Assembly: GCF_000833025.1 (NCBI RefSeq)
Contig: NZ_CP010817.1
Span: 3,348,001 to 3,412,000 of the forward strand
Length of the DNA stretch: 64,000 nucleotides
Reading direction: 5' to 3'
Source of the DNA: Myroides profundi
GTDB lineage: Bacteria; Bacteroidota; Bacteroidia; Flavobacteriales; Flavobacteriaceae
Shown here in pieces: positions 5,333 to 64,000 of this stretch. The notes beneath the pieces are model-generated. The model saw nothing but the letters and a program-made list of their open reading frames with translations. It was not told the DNA's origin and made no database searches. Position 1 is the stretch's first letter; the number at the start of each line of letters is the position of its first letter. A program made the position numbers and the translations under genes.

Positions 5333-6634
5333 ATGGATATTACTGAAATTTACCAATGTTTTTTACAGTGTGATGGTGTATCTACTGATACTAGAAACAT
5401 ACATCCTAACTCTCTTTTTTTCGCATTAAAAGGAGATAACTTTGATGCTAACGAGTTTGCTCAAGACGCACTTAATAAAGGTGCTGCCTTTGTGATTATG
5501 GACAATAAAAAGCTGATTACTGATCCAGCTAAAATGCTTTATGTACCAGATGCCTTAGGAGCTTTACAACAGTTAGCTAAACACCATAGACAACAACTAG
5601 GCTTACCTATTATAGCGCTAACAGGTAGTAATGGAAAGACTACTTCTAAAGAACTTATCGCTACAGTACTAAGCAAAAAATATAAAGTAACGGCTACTAA
5701 AGGAAACCTAAACAACCATATTGGTGTACCGCTTACATTACTTTCACTTACAGAAGAGACAGACTTAGGTATTATAGAAATGGGGGCTAACCACAAACAA
5801 GAAATAGCTTTCTTATGTGAATTAGCTGATCCTGACTTCGGGTACATTACTAACTTTGGAAAAGCACATTTAGATGGCTTTGGGGGCTTTGAAGGAGTTA
5901 TTAAGGCTAAAAGCGAATTATACGACTATTTAGAAGATAACTATAAAACAGCTTTTGTCAACTTAGATGACCCTAGACAAGATGCAAAAACTATGACCTT
6001 TAGTCGTTATACTTTTGGTAGAGATTCTTCTGCTGATATCGTTATTGAACAATTAGAAGCTCAACCTAACGCTACAGTATACTATAAAGGAGAGATAATT
6101 AACTCTAACCTTACAGGAATCTATAACGCAACTAATATAGCTGCTGCATTAACTATCGGTCAATTCTTCAATGTGGATTTAAACGATATTAAAGAAGCCA
6201 TAGAACACTATATCCCTACTAATAATAGATCACAGTGGATTACTAAAGAAGACTCTATGATCTTATTAGATGCTTATAATGCTAACCCTAGCAGTATGGA
6301 CGCTGTATTGACTAACTTTGATCAACTAAATGATCAACGTGATAAAGTATTCGTCTTAGGAGATATGCTTGAGCTAGGAAAAGAAGGCTATAAAGAGCAC
6401 AAAGATATTGTAACTAGATTAAGTGATGTCAAAAACAAAACAGCATACTTTATAGGAAGAGAGTTCTTTAAAGCATCTATTAATGTCACACAAAAAGACA
6501 TACACTTCTTCGAAACGTTTGACTTGTTTAAACAACATATTCTTGACCATTCTAACGAAGTATTTAAGAATAAGCTAATCTTGATTAAAGGATCAAGAGG
6601 AATAGCACTAGAAAGAACCTTAGACTTAATATAA
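5333..6634 (+). CDS. murF: UDP-N-acetylmuramoyl-tripeptide--D-alanyl-D-alanine ligase
   Basis: 433 residues, normal for MurF. This cytosolic ATP-dependent ligase adds D-Ala-D-Ala to the UDP-MurNAc-tripeptide, the last soluble step of peptidoglycan precursor synthesis. The N-terminal substrate domain has VSTDTRNIHPNSLFFALKG, typical of MurE/MurF. The P-loop is ALTGSNGKTTSKEL (about residues 98-111). The central domain has LGIIEMGANHKQEI and YITNFGKAHLDGFGG, and the C-terminal domain has LLDAYNANPSSMDAVL and VFVLGDMLELG, which separate MurF from its relatives. The adjacent promoter and terminators suggest a single-gene unit. Confidence 0.96.
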   Translation: MDITEIYQCFLQCDGVSTDTRNIHPNSLFFALKGDNFDANEFAQDALNKGAAFVIMDNKKLITDPAKMLYVPDALGALQQLAKHHRQQLGLPIIALTGSNGKTTSKELIATVLSKKYKVTATKGNLNNHIGVPLTLLSLTEETDLGIIEMGANHKQEIAFLCELADPDFGYITNFGKAHLDGFGGFEGVIKAKSELYDYLEDNYKTAFVNLDDPRQDAKTMTFSRYTFGRDSSADIVIEQLEAQPNATVYYKGEIINSNLTGIYNATNIAAALTIGQFFNVDLNDIKEAIEHYIPTNNRSQWITKEDSMILLDAYNANPSSMDAVLTNFDQLNDQRDKVFVLGDMLELGKEGYKEHKDIVTRLSDVKNKTAYFIGREFFKASINVTQKDIHFFETFDLFKQHILDHSNEVFKNKLILIKGSRGIALERTLDLI

Positions 6635-58099: not shown

Positions 58100-59530
58100 T
58101 TAATCCTCTTTACTCCCATCATCAGCCATTCTGACAATCTTAGGTGTAAACATCGCTACTACATCGACTAACTCTCCCTGTGCAGCCATCACCTGATGAA
58201 TATCTTTATAAGCCATAGGAGCTTCATCTTTACCTGCTCCTATTAACTCTACACCATGATCTGACAATACTGCTTTTATATCAGCTGCTTTCAGAGTCTT
58301 GATAGCTTGTGTTCTGCTCATCTGACGTCCAGCACCATGTGAAGCAGAGTTTAAAGCTTCCTCTTCTCCTTTACCTCTCACTAAGAATCCTGGCGCAGTC
58401 ATAGAGCCTGGTATAATCCCCATCACTCCTTTACTCGCAGGAGTAGCTCCTTTACGGTGTACAATAACCTCTCTACCTTGGTACATCTCCTTCCACGCAA
58501 AATTATGGTGATTCTCCACTTTAGCTAATACCTCAGCACCTATTGCTTTAGTTAGTTTATCATGAATAACCTCATGACAAGCTGAAGCATAATCCCCTGC
58601 CAAGTTCATCATCGTCCAATACTCTTGCCCTGCCTCTGAGTTTAAATCAAGGTAAGCTAAGTTCTTTGCTTCATAAGGTAACTTACAGATATCTTTAGCG
58701 ATTTGCGTATATCTACCTGCTATAGTCGCTCCCATTCCTCGTGAACCTGAATGTGTTAATAAAGCTAAGTAAGTTCCTTTATCTATATTCAATACCTCAT
58801 CTCTCTCCATGAACTCCATCAATCCCCATTCTACAAAGTGGTTACCTCCACCTGAAGACCCCAGTTGTTCCCAAGCTTTATCTTGTAAGCTCTTAATAAA
58901 AGGGTTGAGATTAAACTCTCCTCTATCTAAGATATCATGTTGTGCTTTATATTGTCCTTGGAATCCATGCCCTGCTCCAAACTTAGTATGCTTAACCAAC
59001 TGTTCTTTCAGTAAATCTTCCATACCGTAGAACTCCACACCTTTAATATCAAAAATAGACAACGCCATTCTACACCCAATATCTACTCCTACACCATAAG
59101 GTATCACAGCATTCTCAGTAGCTAATACTCCTCCGATAGGTAATCCATATCCTTGATGTGCATCAGGCATTAACGCACCTGCTACAGCCACAGGTAGCTT
59201 CACTGCAGTTTGCATCTGCTTAATCGCTCCGTCTTCTATATGATCGGCACCGTATACAGTATACCCTACAGCCTCCTCTCTCAGTGGAATAACCTCTTCT
59301 TCTACACGTTGTCCCACGCCTTCTATAATAGCAGTAGCCAACTTCCCGAATACCTTATCGTTTAAGTAATCTTCTGCATTAGTCAGCACAGCTTTATAAT
59401 GTGCTAACATCTCCACCTTCGTATAACCTGTTCTTTTCTTATTCGCTTTTAGAGCAATACCCAATAACTCTGTTTGTGGGTATCCTAAAACAATTAAATC
59501 ATTTCCATTAATTGGTGTATTATCTTTCAT
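58100..59530 (-). CDS. rtcB: RNA-splicing ligase RtcB
   Basis: 476 residues. RtcB joins 2',3'-cyclic phosphate and 5'-OH RNA ends with GTP and manganese. The active site is complete: PDAHQGYGLPIGGVLA, GVGVDIGCRMAL with the metal Cys, GSSGGGNHFVEW, LTHSGSRGMG and SASHGAGRQMSRTQA with the guanylated His, ending KDEAPMAYKDIHQVM. It lies 66 bases after a PQQ-propeller lipoprotein gene. The slipin, tRNA-like RNA and WYL gene upstream fit a RNA-repair context known for bacterial rtcB loci. Confidence 0.97.
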   Translation of the reverse strand: MKDNTPINGNDLIVLGYPQTELLGIALKANKKRTGYTKVEMLAHYKAVLTNAEDYLNDKVFGKLATAIIEGVGQRVEEEVIPLREEAVGYTVYGADHIEDGAIKQMQTAVKLPVAVAGALMPDAHQGYGLPIGGVLATENAVIPYGVGVDIGCRMALSIFDIKGVEFYGMEDLLKEQLVKHTKFGAGHGFQGQYKAQHDILDRGEFNLNPFIKSLQDKAWEQLGSSGGGNHFVEWGLMEFMERDEVLNIDKGTYLALLTHSGSRGMGATIAGRYTQIAKDICKLPYEAKNLAYLDLNSEAGQEYWTMMNLAGDYASACHEVIHDKLTKAIGAEVLAKVENHHNFAWKEMYQGREVIVHRKGATPASKGVMGIIPGSMTAPGFLVRGKGEEEALNSASHGAGRQMSRTQAIKTLKAADIKAVLSDHGVELIGAGKDEAPMAYKDIHQVMAAQGELVDVVAMFTPKIVRMADDGSKED

Positions 59531-59596: not shown

Positions 59597-60862
59597 CTAA
59601 TTCTTAAAATATTTTATATAAGCTGTATTGTGATACTCCTCTTTTGTTTCATAAGCAATGAGTACCTTAGCCTGTTTACTTGTTTTATCTATTGTTGTTA
59701 CTCCTCGTATTGTTAAGAACACCAACTGTCCATCTTTTGTTTCTTCAATATTGGTCAATGGTTTAAACTCCTCTGTGATTGGGTAAGTTGCTAATTCTTT
59801 ACCTTGAAAGTCTAATACAAACACCTTAGTCATAGTGTACCCTACAAGATGCTCTCCTGATTTGTGCCAATTCACAATTTCTTCTGTTGAACCGTAACTC
59901 CATTGCTCTTCACCTGTCTTAGCATTTAGCCCTATTAGAGCTTGAGCATCACTATCTGATTTGCGTACATGTATAACATACGTTTTTCCGTACAATACTG
60001 TATTACTATCAAAATTAGTTGCTAACCTTGGGTATTCTTTAGACTGATACCTCCATTTATAAATAGATAGATTATCCTTAAAGTTGTTCTTTGGATCCAT
60101 AATATCATCATTATCTCCCTTCACATTTCCATCTTGATTAAATGGTATTGCATAGAACTTACCATCTTCTTCTCCGAAGTACAATGTCTCATCATCACTT
60201 CGCATTTGTGTATAAAGTGGACTATCAAACGTAATTCCTTCATACATTCCATAGCTCGTAGGTGTACCACGTAATGAATACTTGTTTAAGTAAATAGCAG
60301 AATTAACGAATATGTTCTCTTGACATAACACAGGTTGATACATATTGAATTTTGTCTCTATACCTTCCGCTTTAAACTCCGTACCATCCTCTTTATTTAA
60401 TATAACAAAGTAAGGATAACTACCTCCACCTGTAGTTACTGTATAAACCTTATCTTGGTATTGCAAAGGTTGTCCCATAAAGTATGGTTCACTACCAGCT
60501 TCTGTATCAAAGCCACCTGAAGTATCATCTACTGCCACATCCATCATACCTATCTGCCCTGCTTCATACATCCACTTTTCTTTCCCTGTTAGGATATCTA
60601 AAGCGACAAACTTACCACTCTCGAAAGGCATATATAGAGTAGTCTCATCGAAGTCAAACTTATTTCTGTTTCCTTCTCCATCTTGTGTAGAGGTATATTC
60701 CCACACTACTTTTTTATTGTCTAAGTCAAAATTGACTACCTTGCCATTAAAACTGAATACAACAGTCTGATTTGGTACATTAACGACAGTATCTTGCGTC
60801 TGTTTATTCTGACATCCAAAGAAGGCAAATAGCGCTGTAAGTGATACTAAGAGTTTTTTCAT
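59597..60862 (-). CDS. PQQ-binding-like beta-propeller lipoprotein
   Basis: 421 residues. Lipobox LFAFFGCQNK (Cys17). The rest is a beta-propeller of PQQ-like blades: VVWEYTSTQDG, LDILTGKEKWMYEAGQIG, LNAKTGEEQWSYGSTE and similar repeats of the form W-x-Y. It has no catalytic dehydrogenase residues and resembles BamB-like scaffold proteins. It sits upstream of rtcB on the same strand with 66 bases between, so co-transcription is possible but the functions differ (envelope against cytosol). Confidence 0.82.
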   Translation of the reverse strand: MKKLLVSLTALFAFFGCQNKQTQDTVVNVPNQTVVFSFNGKVVNFDLDNKKVVWEYTSTQDGEGNRNKFDFDETTLYMPFESGKFVALDILTGKEKWMYEAGQIGMMDVAVDDTSGGFDTEAGSEPYFMGQPLQYQDKVYTVTTGGGSYPYFVILNKEDGTEFKAEGIETKFNMYQPVLCQENIFVNSAIYLNKYSLRGTPTSYGMYEGITFDSPLYTQMRSDDETLYFGEEDGKFYAIPFNQDGNVKGDNDDIMDPKNNFKDNLSIYKWRYQSKEYPRLATNFDSNTVLYGKTYVIHVRKSDSDAQALIGLNAKTGEEQWSYGSTEEIVNWHKSGEHLVGYTMTKVFVLDFQGKELATYPITEEFKPLTNIEETKDGQLVFLTIRGVTTIDKTSKQAKVLIAYETKEEYHNTAYIKYFKN

Positions 60863-61297: not shown

Positions 61298-61326
61298 GTA
61301 AACTGTGAACCGTCAACTGTTAACTA
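61298..61326. repeat. 29-base direct repeat, copy 2
   Basis: GTAAACTGTGAACCGTCAAC followed by TGTTAACTA, 24 of 29 identical to copy 1 at 59563. It overlaps and supplies the stop codon of the slipin gene. Confidence 0.7.
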
Positions 61327-62418
61327 TCTCGAAAACACCTCTTTCAATTGTTTCAAGACATTCCCACCACCAGACAAACTAATCTCTCCTACTTTATCAG
61401 CGATTTTCTCGATGTATTCCATCTCTTTTAATCGCATTAGCATCTCGTTCTCTTCCATCAGCTTCGCTGTGTTTAACAAGCTACGTGTAGCAGCAGTCTC
61501 TTCTCTACGAGTGATCATATTTGCCTGAGCTTTTTTCTCAGCGATTAACACCTGATTCATAATCTCTCTTATATCCCCTGGTAAGATGATATCTTTGATA
61601 CCACAGTTTTTCACTTCGATACCTAAAGATACTATCTCTTCTTTCACCCCATTCAAGATTTCAGAAGACAAGTTCTCTTTGTTCTCCATCAATTCGTCAA
61701 AAGACATTCTACCGACTTTCTCTCTCAACATCAATTGCACCACATTATACATCTGTTTCTCCACCTCTTTGTTGTCCACATAAGCTTTCAACAAATCTTT
61801 TACTTGGTACACCAAGTTGAAGTTGATACGCAGCTGTACTTTATCTTTCGTCAAGATCTCTTGTCCATTCATATCCATCACTTGCTGACGTACATCGACA
61901 AGAGTAATTTGTACCTTGATATCATTCTTCCAATATCTGTATTCACCTGCATTCAAAATCTCTTGGAACTGTCCATCCACGAATAACAATCCTTTCTCAT
62001 TAGCCCCTACCGTGTACATTCTCACGAAGTTTGACATATTGCCTTTCCCCATGATATTACGTGCGATAGCCTTGTTCACTTCTAATTCATCTGTAGTATA
62101 TCGCTCAAAAGAGTACTCAGTAGCTGCCTTCCAGTAGATATGTCTACCAGCACCTAATGCTACGTTGAACACTTTATTCTTATACACCAACACCACTTCG
62201 TTATCCATCACATCGATCACCTCTAACATTCCTCTTAACTCTGTATTTAATAACAGAGCATCTATATCTCTACGCATACCGAAGTACTCAGACATATTGT
62301 ATTCCATCACCTCTTTCTCACCCCATAACCAGTATTCACCAGCAGTATATACTCTCTGTAATTCTCCTTGTTTAAACACTAAGGCAACGTGATTTGTTTT
62401 TACTTGTAACTTTTTCAT
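61324..62418 (-). CDS. Slipin (SPFH/Band 7) protein without a membrane anchor
   Basis: 364 residues. The SPFH core (about 130-300) has VRMYTVGANEKGLLFVDGQF, VRQQVMDMNGQEILTKDKVQ and VKNCGIKDIILPGDIREIMNQVLIAE (across residues 272-297), then a coiled-coil tail. Unlike most slipins there is no N-terminal membrane helix. The N-terminal part instead repeats the SPFH entry strand three times: TAGEYWLWGEKEVMEYN, GAGRHIYWKAATEYSFERY and NAGEYRYWKNDIKVQITLVD. Band 7 proteins of this type occur beside rtcB and Y RNAs in other bacteria. The tRNA-like RNA lies about 330 bases upstream on the same strand. Confidence 0.9.
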   Translation of the reverse strand: MKKLQVKTNHVALVFKQGELQRVYTAGEYWLWGEKEVMEYNMSEYFGMRRDIDALLLNTELRGMLEVIDVMDNEVVLVYKNKVFNVALGAGRHIYWKAATEYSFERYTTDELEVNKAIARNIMGKGNMSNFVRMYTVGANEKGLLFVDGQFQEILNAGEYRYWKNDIKVQITLVDVRQQVMDMNGQEILTKDKVQLRINFNLVYQVKDLLKAYVDNKEVEKQMYNVVQLMLREKVGRMSFDELMENKENLSSEILNGVKEEIVSLGIEVKNCGIKDIILPGDIREIMNQVLIAEKKAQANMITRREETAATRSLLNTAKLMEENEMLMRLKEMEYIEKIADKVGEISLSGGGNVLKQLKEVFSR

Positions 62419-62730
62419 AACTGTATATTTTTAATATTTTACGTCTTTATCATAAAGAACAGTCTAAATAGGCTTCACTTATCTCAGGCGGAAAATGAAG
62501 TAAACTGTACAATAGAATAGTTTGTGTATAGTCCTGAATGACTCACTGAGCAAGTCATTCACTCTATATCATCCCCTATTCCTCTTCTACAACATAACTT
62601 GTTTTTACAGGCTTTGATAAGTTGTCTTTTATTCCCTTAGTCTAAGACTGTAAGAAGAAAAGACAGAAACACTATTTGACTGAACCTTTTTTATATGGAG
62701 AGGATTTTTAATGAAGTTCCTCTTCTTCTC
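62419..62730. other. Leader region between the tRNA-like RNA and slipin
   Basis: About 310 bases without a coding frame. A hairpin with 8-base arms (GAATGACT / AGTCATTC, 62536-62560) and a CTCC/GGAG-rich imperfect hairpin near 62696-62734 are visible. It may belong to the same transcript as the tRNA-like element. Confidence 0.5.
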
Positions 62731-62931
62731 CCAAAATTGCTTAAAAGGCAATTGTTCTGATCTAACCGCTAATCTATATTACCCTGAGGTAATAGTAGGA
62801 TTCGAACCTACGACATGAACATTTTACTAATCCCATATTAGTTGTTCTTCTGATTACAAACAGGATAAGGTAAACTACTGTCCCTCACTTCTGCGCTATA
62901 CCGAAACGCTTCCAAGGTTTGTATCTTTCGA
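62731..62931 (-). ncRNA. tRNA-mimicking Y RNA (YrlA-like), circularly permuted tRNA fold
   Basis: Minus strand. The core (62821 to 62753) reads, in order: TGTTC (anticodon-stem 3' strand), ATGTC (variable loop, C48), T-arm GTAGG-TTCGAAT-CCTAC (62795-62811), TATTACC (acceptor 3' strand), loop TCAG, GGTAATA (acceptor 5' strand, 7 of 7 pairs), TA (positions 8-9), D-arm GATT-AGCGGTTA-GATC (62759-62774), A, and GAACA (62753-62757, pairing with TGTTC). U8, A14, G15-C48, G18-G19, A21 and TTC-x-A of the T-loop are all present. It is a tRNA opened in the anticodon loop with its acceptor sealed, as in YrlA bacterial Y RNAs. A 5' domain of about 110 bases precedes it. The ends are inferred from a promoter and a weak hairpin. 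Confidence 0.85.
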
Positions 62932-62937
62932 ACAGTA

Positions 62938-62945
62938 CAAAGATG
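62938..62945 (-). promoter_or_regulatory. -7 box of the tRNA-like RNA promoter
   Basis: CATCTTTG on the minus strand, one base off TAnnTTTG, with a TTG 18 bases upstream (62964-62966) inside operator copy A. It predicts a start near 62931. Confidence 0.5.
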
Positions 62946-62954
62946 CACACCTAC

Positions 62955-62975
62955 CTACGCAATCAAATTGCGCAC
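62955..62975. promoter_or_regulatory. Shared palindromic operator, copy A
   Basis: CTACGCAAT, then CAA, then ATTGCGCAC. CGCAAT and ATTGCG are perfect inverted arms. It covers the -33 region of the tRNA-like RNA promoter. Seventeen of 21 positions match copy B at 63055. Confidence 0.7.
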
Positions 62976-63054
62976 TAATAAATATTTGTAAAATGTTCTA
63001 TTAAACACTAAATATCAATTAATTACAATCACAAATAATTCAAACAAAAAACAA

Positions 63055-63075
63055 CTACGCAATTACACTGCGTAC
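63055..63075. promoter_or_regulatory. Shared palindromic operator, copy B
   Basis: CTACGCAAT, then TAC, then ACTGCGTAC. TACGCA and TGCGTA form the arms. It covers the -33 region of the WYL gene promoter, 50 bases before its ATG. It is presumably bound by the WYL protein. Confidence 0.7.
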
Positions 63076-63092
63076 GTAAAGAGAAGAATATG

Positions 63093-63100
63093 TATATTTG
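63093..63100 (+). promoter_or_regulatory. -7 box of the WYL gene promoter
   Basis: TATATTTG, exact match to TAnnTTTG, 24 bases before the ATG at 63125. Confidence 0.7.
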
Positions 63101-63124
63101 AAGTGAATAAAACGCTAAAAAGTA

Positions 63125-64000
63125 ATGGCAACGAATAAATTAGCATTATTGCGCTATCGAATTATCGATGAATGTCTACGAAACAGATTCAGAAAATGGA
63201 CGCTTAACGACCTTATCGAAAAAGTAGCTGATGGACTATACGAATACGAAGGTATAGACACTGGTATCAGCAAGCGTACAATACAGCTCGACATACAAGC
63301 GATGCGCAGTGATAGTCTAGGATATAATGCTCCTATCATCGTAGTAGATAGAAAATACTATACCTATGAGGATGCTAACTACAGTATCAAAAACTCTCCT
63401 ATCAACGATGCAGATACAGAAAAGCTAAAAGAAGTAGTCGCTATACTAAAGCACCTCAACGGATTCAGTCAAGTAGATGAGATGAGTGAAGTCATTGCGA
63501 AGTTGGATAATAGTTTACTGACCCGTAGTACGAAAGCGCCCAACTATATACAGATGGAAGGCAATAGTTTGCTAAAGGGAATTAAATTCATCAGTCCACT
63601 ATATAATGCGATTAAGAACAAACAAACCTTACTGATAGAATACAAATCTTTTAAGTCTAAGGAAGCCACTAAGAATATCTACTATCCTTACTTATTAAAA
63701 GAGTATCGCAATAGATGGTTTGTAGTCGTACGCAGTAGTACTCATAAGCATTTACTGACGTTAGCACTTGACCGTATCATCAACGTATATGCCTTAGCAA
63801 ACGAACCTTATAAAGAATATGAAGGAGTAGACTTTGACCGATATTATAACGATACCCTTGGAGTGACTAAGACGGAACAGGACCGAGCTCAGAAAGTAAT
63901 ACTATGGGTGAATGCCTATAATGTTCCTTACGTAAAGACCAAACCCCTACACCATTCTCAGCAAGTATTAGAGGAAGATGAGGCAGGTATGAAGATACGC
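63125..64000 (+). CDS. WYL-domain transcription regulator (3' end outside window)
   Basis: 292 codons present, frame open at the window edge. The N-terminal helix-turn-helix is MATNKLALLRYRIIDECLRN followed by WTLNDLIEKVADGL and GISKRTIQLDIQAMRSDSLGY (across residues 46-66). The WYL domain begins about residue 170: YKSFKSKEATKNIYYPYLLK and YRNRWFVVVRSSTHKHLLTLALDRI, the W-x-V and A-L-D-R-I parts. WYL domains are thought to bind nucleic acids or nucleotide ligands. It diverges from the tRNA-like RNA and slipin, and both promoters carry the same palindrome, so it probably regulates them and itself. Confidence 0.92.
   Translation, partial: MATNKLALLRYRIIDECLRNRFRKWTLNDLIEKVADGLYEYEGIDTGISKRTIQLDIQAMRSDSLGYNAPIIVVDRKYYTYEDANYSIKNSPINDADTEKLKEVVAILKHLNGFSQVDEMSEVIAKLDNSLLTRSTKAPNYIQMEGNSLLKGIKFISPLYNAIKNKQTLLIEYKSFKSKEATKNIYYPYLLKEYRNRWFVVVRSSTHKHLLTLALDRIINVYALANEPYKEYEGVDFDRYYNDTLGVTKTEQDRAQKVILWVNAYNVPYVKTKPLHHSQQVLEEDEAGMKIR

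Follow-up and report, generated by a model that had tools for sequence, protein, structure and literature searches.

The bacterial RNAs that most resemble the one described here are the YrlA RNAs (RF02553), which are 90–150 nt long and combine a T-arm, a sealed acceptor hairpin and a D-arm into a permuted tRNA-like domain; another class, tmRNA, consists of a tRNA-like part plus pseudoknots. YrlA occurs in RNA-repair operons together with the RNA ligase RtcB (PMC8394870 and PMC7790460, in the portions available). In Salmonella the operon rsr-yrlBA-rtcBA, which stands under the control of RtcR and includes this tRNA-mimic RNA, is induced by cut tRNAs, and the available part of the same report raises competitive inhibition by the tRNA-like domain of YrlA as a possibility (PMC7790460). 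The accessible text on Anabaena describes a regulator, TrcR, whose repression of a tRNA operon and of rtcB is relieved by translation stress, and whose mutation raises the expression of a slipin gene about 42-fold (PMC10272220). Permuted gene order, with the 3' half ahead of the 5' half, is known from tRNA genes of algae and archaea, and a permuted order is also found for two-piece tmRNA (both from the available portion of PMC3978253).

In Myroides profundi, the conserved region upstream of a slipin gene, about 500 nt long, is, judging from its sequence and that of its relatives, almost certainly a slipin-linked RNA in which tRNA bodies are laid out in permuted order. From 5' to 3', its parts are a 5' domain, then one or two permuted tRNAs in tandem, a tRNA-like anticodon arm and a predicted pseudoknot, and finally a 3' domain that extends to slipin. 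Its T-arm, sealed acceptor hairpin and D-arm are those of YrlA, but it differs from YrlA in its length, in its one or two tandem modules, in its anticodon-arm hairpins and predicted pseudoknot, in its slipin neighbour and in the usual absence of Rsr. The Salmonella operon likewise includes a tRNA-mimic RNA but has Rsr, not slipin, and separate small RNAs. The Anabaena regulon is similar in grouping slipin, RtcB and spare tRNA genes, which there rise upon loss of the regulator, and differs in that the regulator is an RHH protein, the genes are dispersed and, in the available part of the report, no permuted RNA is described (PMC10272220). Algal and archaeal permuted tRNAs are processed to ordinary tRNAs, whereas the slipin-linked RNA has a sealed acceptor; and, unlike two-piece tmRNA, it has two tRNA bodies. 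The RNA thus appears to work like the tRNA-like half of YrlA, while its whole architecture and its linkage to slipin seem new: they had no counterpart in searches of Rfam 15, and no description of a slipin-linked tRNA-like RNA was found in the literature searched, which mostly left aside subscription papers and preprints.

The circularly permuted tRNA module occupies positions 62753-62821 (minus strand) of the window, that is, of the whole 64,000-nucleotide stretch of DNA that was analysed, and was delimited by sequence parsing, Rfam alignment and a strict pattern. Read 5' to 3', it consists of the 3' strand of an anticodon stem (TGTTC, 62821-62817), a 5-nt variable loop (ATGTC, 62816-62812), a T-arm (GTAGG-TTCGAAT-CCTAC, 62795-62811), an acceptor hairpin with 7/7 pairs (TATTACC/GGTAATA, 62777-62794; pairing checked in relatives), U8-A9 (62776-62775), a D-arm whose last pair is T-G (GATT-AGCGGTTA-GATC, 62759-62774), A26, and the 5' strand of the anticodon stem (GAACA, 62757-62753), all on the minus strand. 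The acceptor is sealed by the tetraloop TCAG (62787-62784, minus strand), and there is neither a free 3' end nor a CCA. The module is a tRNA whose opening lies in the anticodon loop and whose acceptor end is closed. Every stem of the permuted scaffold that the preliminary description had drawn on the minus strand was located where it had been placed, and the main tertiary-contact bases (U8, A14, G15, G18G19, C48 and T54-A58, in what we take to be the standard tRNA numbering) are indeed all present. The strict pattern, which combines a 5-bp T-arm with a TTCRANY loop, a sealed acceptor and a 4-bp D-arm with GG, matched once in the 64-kb window, at this module, and did not match in 150 dinucleotide-shuffled windows (9.6 Mb, both strands). 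Folding the window sequence alone is uninformative: the minimum free energy (MFE) of 62731-62945 has a z-score of −0.66, with 50 of 200 shuffles as stable or more so, and the anticodon stem is not formed in that single-sequence structure.

A search of 62418-63125 against Rfam gave YrlA, the family named in the preliminary description, as best match (E 0.0006; 28.4 bits; model positions 23–87 of 114), and the tRNA model reached 20.1 bits against a cut-off of 29, with broken acceptor pairs; YrlA did come first, but both models remained below their own cut-offs. Rfam 15 gave no match in the window at gathering level, YrlA and tRNA being the only plausible families beneath it; in 11 related loci, the matches near slipin that did reach that level were tRNA calls. 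An ordinary tRNA gene was rejected on the tRNA score, its broken acceptor pairs and the absence of any tRNA call by ARAGORN over the window, and a tmRNA on the lack of a tmRNA call by ARAGORN (run in tRNA and tmRNA modes) and of an Rfam gathering match there.

Two elements overlooked in the preliminary description follow the module on the minus strand. Directly after it lies an anticodon-arm hairpin of 5 bp with a 7-nt loop (ATTGC-CTTTTAA-GCAAT, 62736-62752), with anticodon UUU at 62745-62743 and a loop that is presumably that of tRNA-Lys(UUU); locus L068 has the same arm, and L069-L070 have it with another anticodon. Beyond the arm, a pattern search predicts an H-type pseudoknot (S1 GAAG/CTTC, S2 GAGGA/TCCTC; 62700-62728). 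The search fitted this pattern in 45 of 48 regions, among which L072, L102 and L112 look unlike the common motif; a separate comparison used mononucleotide shuffles only. The 3' domain or leader (62419-62699) is defined by conservation, which extends to the slipin start codon. The 5' domain (62848-62934), drawn from conservation and from the fold of Flavobacterium-type relatives, begins with an invariant TGTTC (62934-62930) and is preceded by a candidate −7 box (CATCTTTG, 62938-62945), likewise on the minus strand. CATCTTTGTA is found in 15/15 Myroides-type loci, and with TAnnTTTG taken as the Bacteroidota consensus a transcription start near 62930 is predicted. A palindrome, CGCAATCAAATTGCG, lies before the RNA at 62958-62972 and a second, CGCAATTACACTGCG, before the WYL gene at 63058-63072. 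The form CGCA-N7-TGCG, a candidate WYL operator, stands ahead of the RNA in most loci, in counts that include matches to acceptor hairpins (L090, L105 and one of two in L074). The hairpin ACTAAT/ATTAGT of the preliminary description is present at 62842-62826 (minus strand) and, with an adjoining GAACA strand (62847-62843), makes up an element spanning 62826-62847. Comparison with relatives by eye suggests that it is likely what remains of the D-arm of a second module further upstream, which is intact in other species.

Pfam assignments bear out the RtcB-slipin-WYL locus of the preliminary description. Slipin, an SPFH/Band_7 protein of 364 aa, is encoded at 61324-62418 (minus); RtcB at 58100-59530 (minus; PF01139, E 2e-81); and a WYL-domain transcriptional regulator on the plus strand from 63125 to 64000 and beyond the window end (344 aa in the genome). 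By eye, the slipin N-terminus seems to hold three short-motif repeats (about 9–30, 74–96 and 139–163) before the SPFH domain. A 421-aa reading frame (59597-60862) separates slipin and RtcB in the window, and in L067 the two genes are about 0.4 kb apart. Tandem tRNA genes imitate the permuted order, and so slipin, not the RNA, served as the query for relatives, which yielded 50 loci in 49 of 199 genomes of the genus. Slipin is the steady neighbour of the RNA; genes often found nearby are those for RtcB, for WYL (RtcR in Citrobacter) and for RNA ligases, along with spare tRNA genes. WYL, RNA, slipin and RtcB occur together in 11 of the 50 loci; RtcB was encoded in the fetched stretch in 11 of the 50, with one further partial match. 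The other 38 genomes have a WYL homologue in 36 cases and RtcB in 35; 29 of these 36 WYL genes, and 23 of the 25 closer RtcB genes, are found no more than 40 kb away on the contig that carries slipin. Canonical tRNA genes, mainly for Asp, Pro, Leu(UAG), Arg, His, Phe, Tyr and Asn, stand upstream in 30 of the 50 loci (31 by raw ARAGORN calls), at least three of them in 25, the ARAGORN counts including calls inside the RNA in L090 (its sole call), L087, L092, L098 and L114; none stands upstream in the 11 WYL-adjacent loci. Flavobacterium-type RNA-repair islands such as L078, L105, L082 and L088, among others, hold up to ten spare tRNA genes, with a bias towards the same Asp, Pro, Leu, Arg, His, Phe, Tyr and Asn. 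Recurring neighbour clusters, identified by scanning representatives only, are RLIG1 RNA ligase (9 loci), Rnl2 RNA ligase (5), an RNase_T-type exonuclease (18) and a metallophosphoesterase (5).

Upstream of slipin, two T-arms lie 50–95 nt apart in 45 of the 50 loci. One good T-arm only was found in the Myroides-type loci L066 (that of the window), L067 and L071 and in L115, and L097 stops at a contig edge. The usual layout is module A, module B, an anticodon-arm hairpin and the predicted pseudoknot, with the 5' domain before them and the 3' domain running to slipin. Module A resembles the window module, its ends leaving through an anticodon-type stem (for example UCUAU/AUAGA); it usually lacks a closed anticodon loop, and in some loci is Leu-like with a closed anticodon arm of its own. 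The loops that seal the acceptor stems are short and often GCAA, GTAA, TTCG or TGCG. Of the 45 loci in which T-arms are paired in this way, 32 went into an alignment, A2, whose structure was taken from one row, L104; those omitted were six of Leu type, L068-L070 of Myroides type, L111, and also L072, L102 and L110, which lack an anticodon arm. Across 37 pairs, 95.8% of cells are paired; two-sided changes occur at 24 pairs, against 15.4 after shuffling, and in 185 cells, against 50.2, and at every counted pair of both acceptor hairpins, the D-stem of module B being weak (64.9% of cells paired). The covariation score is 0.460 against 0.165 in shuffles, none of 500 of which reaches it, and against 0.037–0.072 for slid structures, a comparison that somewhat favours the unslid structure because the structure was read from L104, a training locus of the covariance model R1 introduced below. 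Pairing of the ordinary tRNA acceptor kind between neighbouring modules stands at 45.0%, against 48.5% when shuffled. Since covariation is strong and ordinary acceptor pairing lies at shuffle level, what has been conserved is the sealed and permuted topology. RNAalifold over the whole region, run on the 44 non-Myroides loci less six without the pattern-defined 5' motif, gave local helices only.

The Myroides-type series reaches the window module itself. Among 15 such sequences the anticodon stem, complete in 14, changes in step from UGUUC/GAACA through UAUUC/GAAUA to UAUUU/AAAUA; paired changes are seen in the acceptor, D and T stems too (in the T-stem once), and breaks are confined to one sequence at one acceptor pair and one at one anticodon-stem pair. 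The compensatory changes on which the preliminary description had staked its proposal are accordingly found in all four stems. Of 90 distinct module-A sequences, 74 have G-C and 14 have A-U as the tertiary pair 15-48, the two exceptions being L110 and L136 (Fisher p 2.5e-14, uncorrected for relatedness; one locus unparsed), and this covariation speaks for a real tRNA-like L-shape.

The anticodon arm changes in a different manner. Its loop is CTTTTAA in seven of the 15 Myroides-type sequences, CTTAAAA in five, CTCAAAA in one and CTGTCAC, which we take to be the loop of tRNA-Asp, in one; the arm is absent in M. phaeus L174 and was not found in L072, L102, L110 and L111. In A2 the entropy at wobble position 34 is 1.97 of 2 bits, compared with 0 at 37–38 and at most 0.45 at 32–33 (rows L094 and L099, 2 of 32, being shifted in the alignment). 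A fast-changing anticodon in a near-fixed frame is the expected look of a bait, although other causes are possible.

In the light of the structure and the Anabaena regulon, the likeliest reading, and the best explanation as a whole with a probability of roughly 0.5, is a tRNA look-alike that is induced by stress and acts with slipin. The RNA would be transcribed under the WYL regulator (RtcR in Citrobacter) while tRNAs are being cut, and would act in trans with slipin in an RNA-protein assembly. As a tRNA look-alike that could be neither charged nor used in translation, it might draw anticodon nucleases to the slipin assembly, or hold RtcB or ATP-dependent RNA ligases there, while the tRNA pool was restored by RtcB and, in other species, by spare tRNA genes. 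What we infer in this scheme is transcription, the WYL signal, slipin binding and a role as bait or scaffold; a trans-acting decoy or scaffold role, taken by itself, has a little less than an even chance. The slipin-type SPFH proteins of RNA-repair loci would thereby gain a candidate RNA partner and a link to tRNA damage, and the RNA may shield or sense damaged tRNAs. Tandem permuted tRNAs with a free wobble base in otherwise near-constant loops suggest an arms race with anticodon nucleases. A bolder version, which we put forward only tentatively, sees in these RNAs a widespread and new class of non-chargeable permuted tRNAs with evolvable anticodons that serve on slipin, under WYL/RtcR control, as bait and alarm for anticodon nucleases, whether of phage defence, of phages or among rival toxins; that proposal extends to E. 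coli, about 30% of whose complete genomes have a related slipin locus.

The strongest rival is a role in cis, in which the RNA is the slipin 5' leader and cleavage of the arm, or a tRNA-recognising protein, reshapes the leader and alters slipin expression. It keeps its place because the RNA sits in the slipin leader, on the slipin strand just ahead of the start codon, to which conservation extends. The window also has strands that could make up a switch, two TGTTC-like and two GAACA-like, and its MFE structure prefers both alternative partners: GAACA 62757-62753 pairs with the TGTTC of the 5' domain, and the TGTTC of the module with the upstream GAACA. These alternatives are kept among the 15 Myroides-type sequences, the upstream strand offering 5/5 pairs in 10 and 4/5 in the other 5, and the 5' TGTTC being able to form 5/5 pairs with the downstream strand in 12. 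Matching two-sided changes, however, are seen in the anticodon stem only and in neither alternative pairing. The competition for the TGTTC strand envisaged in the preliminary description is therefore more extensive than stated there, while the changes in step fall to the anticodon stem; a switch between competing strands is possible. Moreover, a leader needs less than two full tRNA bodies with tertiary covariation, and other species keep the upstream module intact. On balance we consider a cis sensor unlikely.

A true YrlA-type Y RNA, tethering PNPase or another RNase with slipin in place of Rsr, is rather less probable than the cis sensor. The permuted domain of YrlA, with its T-arm, sealed acceptor and D-arm, is present in the window, YrlA is the top Rfam match to the module, and known homologues of both Rsr and slipin are rings. 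The window MFE structure has a 5-bp pairing of 5' and 3' strands that might stand for a basal Y RNA stem but shows no matching changes in the Myroides-type series, and TGTTCGAAAG at this TGTTC/GAACA pairing is one base off what we take to be the Rsr-binding motif of the YrlA basal stem (GNCGAAN(0-1)G-like). In two loci of the same genus, L116 and L117, Rsr and RtcB accompany a YrlA-like RNA, which reaches 48.8 bits in the one and 42.7 bits in the other with R1, and a WYL gene lies divergent to them. Against this, no Rsr (TROVE) protein, which the preliminary description had thought might lie elsewhere, is encoded in the window's own genome, and Rsr is missing from 40 of the 49 slipin genomes of the genus; the other nine have both, so slipin does not simply replace Rsr. 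Length and anticodon arms differ as well, and the YrlA gathering score of 69 bits was reached neither by the window (28.4) nor in any of 61 genus genomes. At E 1 the YrlA model 'matches' 57 of these 61 but also 11 of 14 control genomes, and 21 of the 30 loci that it fetched contain ARAGORN tRNAs; as a genus-wide finder it was dropped, since it matches tandem tRNA genes and controls. The YrlA label fits the module only, not the whole RNA. Membership of the Y RNA family, the first proposal of the preliminary description, is not supported, in view of the missing Rsr, the longer region, the anticodon arms, the slipin neighbour and the sub-threshold score, and among its readings the best fit is its alternative, a new relative that acts with slipin.

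The RNA might instead be a precursor of working tRNAs, its permuted genes being opened, joined by RtcB or another ligase, and charged, as in red algae. RtcB and RNA ligases are indeed available in the locus or the genome, some modules carry full Lys-, Tyr-, Asn- or Leu-like anticodon arms, and in L086 and L087 the Rfam tRNA model exceeds its cut-off inside the RNA, so that a canonical fold is possible there. The short loops that close the acceptor stems, however, leave no space for a CCA end, the wobble position is near saturation, and module A is mostly without a closed anticodon loop, which together make a precursor very improbable. A decayed, functionless tRNA array, or a pattern artefact of adjacent tRNA genes, draws on the mimicry of YrlA-type order by tandem tRNA genes and on the canonical tRNA genes near many loci, but is scarcely credible given strong covariation within modules and at the tertiary pair, no ordinary acceptor pairing, and a slipin linkage conserved across many genera.

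That linkage was followed with a covariance model, R1, built from 32 genus loci picked upstream of slipin, with the structure of L104. Over the 199 genus genomes all 36 places scoring at least 88 bits lie on the slipin strand, 262–498 nt before the start codon, the next score being 75; as 32 of these places are training loci and the slipin search also supplied the other four, the genus matches are largely the training set and show mainly that there is no strong match without slipin. The window itself scores 41.9 bits, within the range reached by tandem tRNAs; R1 finds it weakly because it has one intact module. The mark of the slipin-linked group, a permuted module encoded ahead of slipin and on its strand, is present in the window and in its relatives, and the window is assigned to the group on the grounds of synteny, the Myroides-type series and the strict pattern. 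At E 1e-9 or better, R1 matched 21 of 249 genomes in a family search and 10 of 296 in a phylum search. Slipin lies downstream in 26 of the 27 loci newly examined (the 21 of the family and six of the ten of the phylum, leaving out L151-L153, which are training loci, and L128, already counted); the exception, L157 (63.9 bits), consists of two tandem tRNA-Asn genes without slipin, and L148, weak at 69.0 bits, has slipin beside it. Ten of ten non-Myroides loci fetched through slipin alone, from Pedobacter, Flexithrix, Chitinophagales and Flammeovirgaceae, carry the RNA (R1 77–104 bits).

Beyond the Bacteroidota, eight stretches from plasmid and E. coli collections were inspected, and simpler relatives in E. 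coli, Citrobacter and a Firmicute are possible. A T-arm plus sealed acceptor lies upstream of slipin in E. coli L187 and in Citrobacter, and Subdoligranulum has a T-arm with a sealed acceptor of 8/9 pairs. The E. coli module is less clear than the Bacteroidota forms: L187 scores only 13.4 bits with R1, and in L192 no T-arm with at least four pairs was found. In Photobacterium two upstream units are called tRNAs by ARAGORN and Rfam. Two Burkholderia loci have two T-arms in what, by eye, seems ordinary order, a third Burkholderia stretch being uninformative owing to a wrong start point. In Burkholderia L189 (about 5640-5740) and L194 a tRNA-like unit ahead of slipin can be seen by eye, with a GAAA-closed hairpin at the anticodon-arm site. 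A 1571-nt query taken from L187 (5560-7130; slipin and a 440-nt upstream stretch) is covered to at least 80% by 1621 of 5426 complete E. coli genomes, and the presence of a related locus there makes tests possible in a tractable organism. In Citrobacter L191 (960-4913), rtcR stands divergent to the tRNA-like stretch, slipin and a nucleotidyltransferase gene, within a 7-kb stretch that holds no rtcBA. The upstream stretch of L187 combines a sealed tRNA-like module with what we take, from the consensus, to be a sigma-54-like promoter. Downstream of slipin, both L187 and L192 have a nucleotidyltransferase gene, located between yjbD (DUF3811) and lysC.
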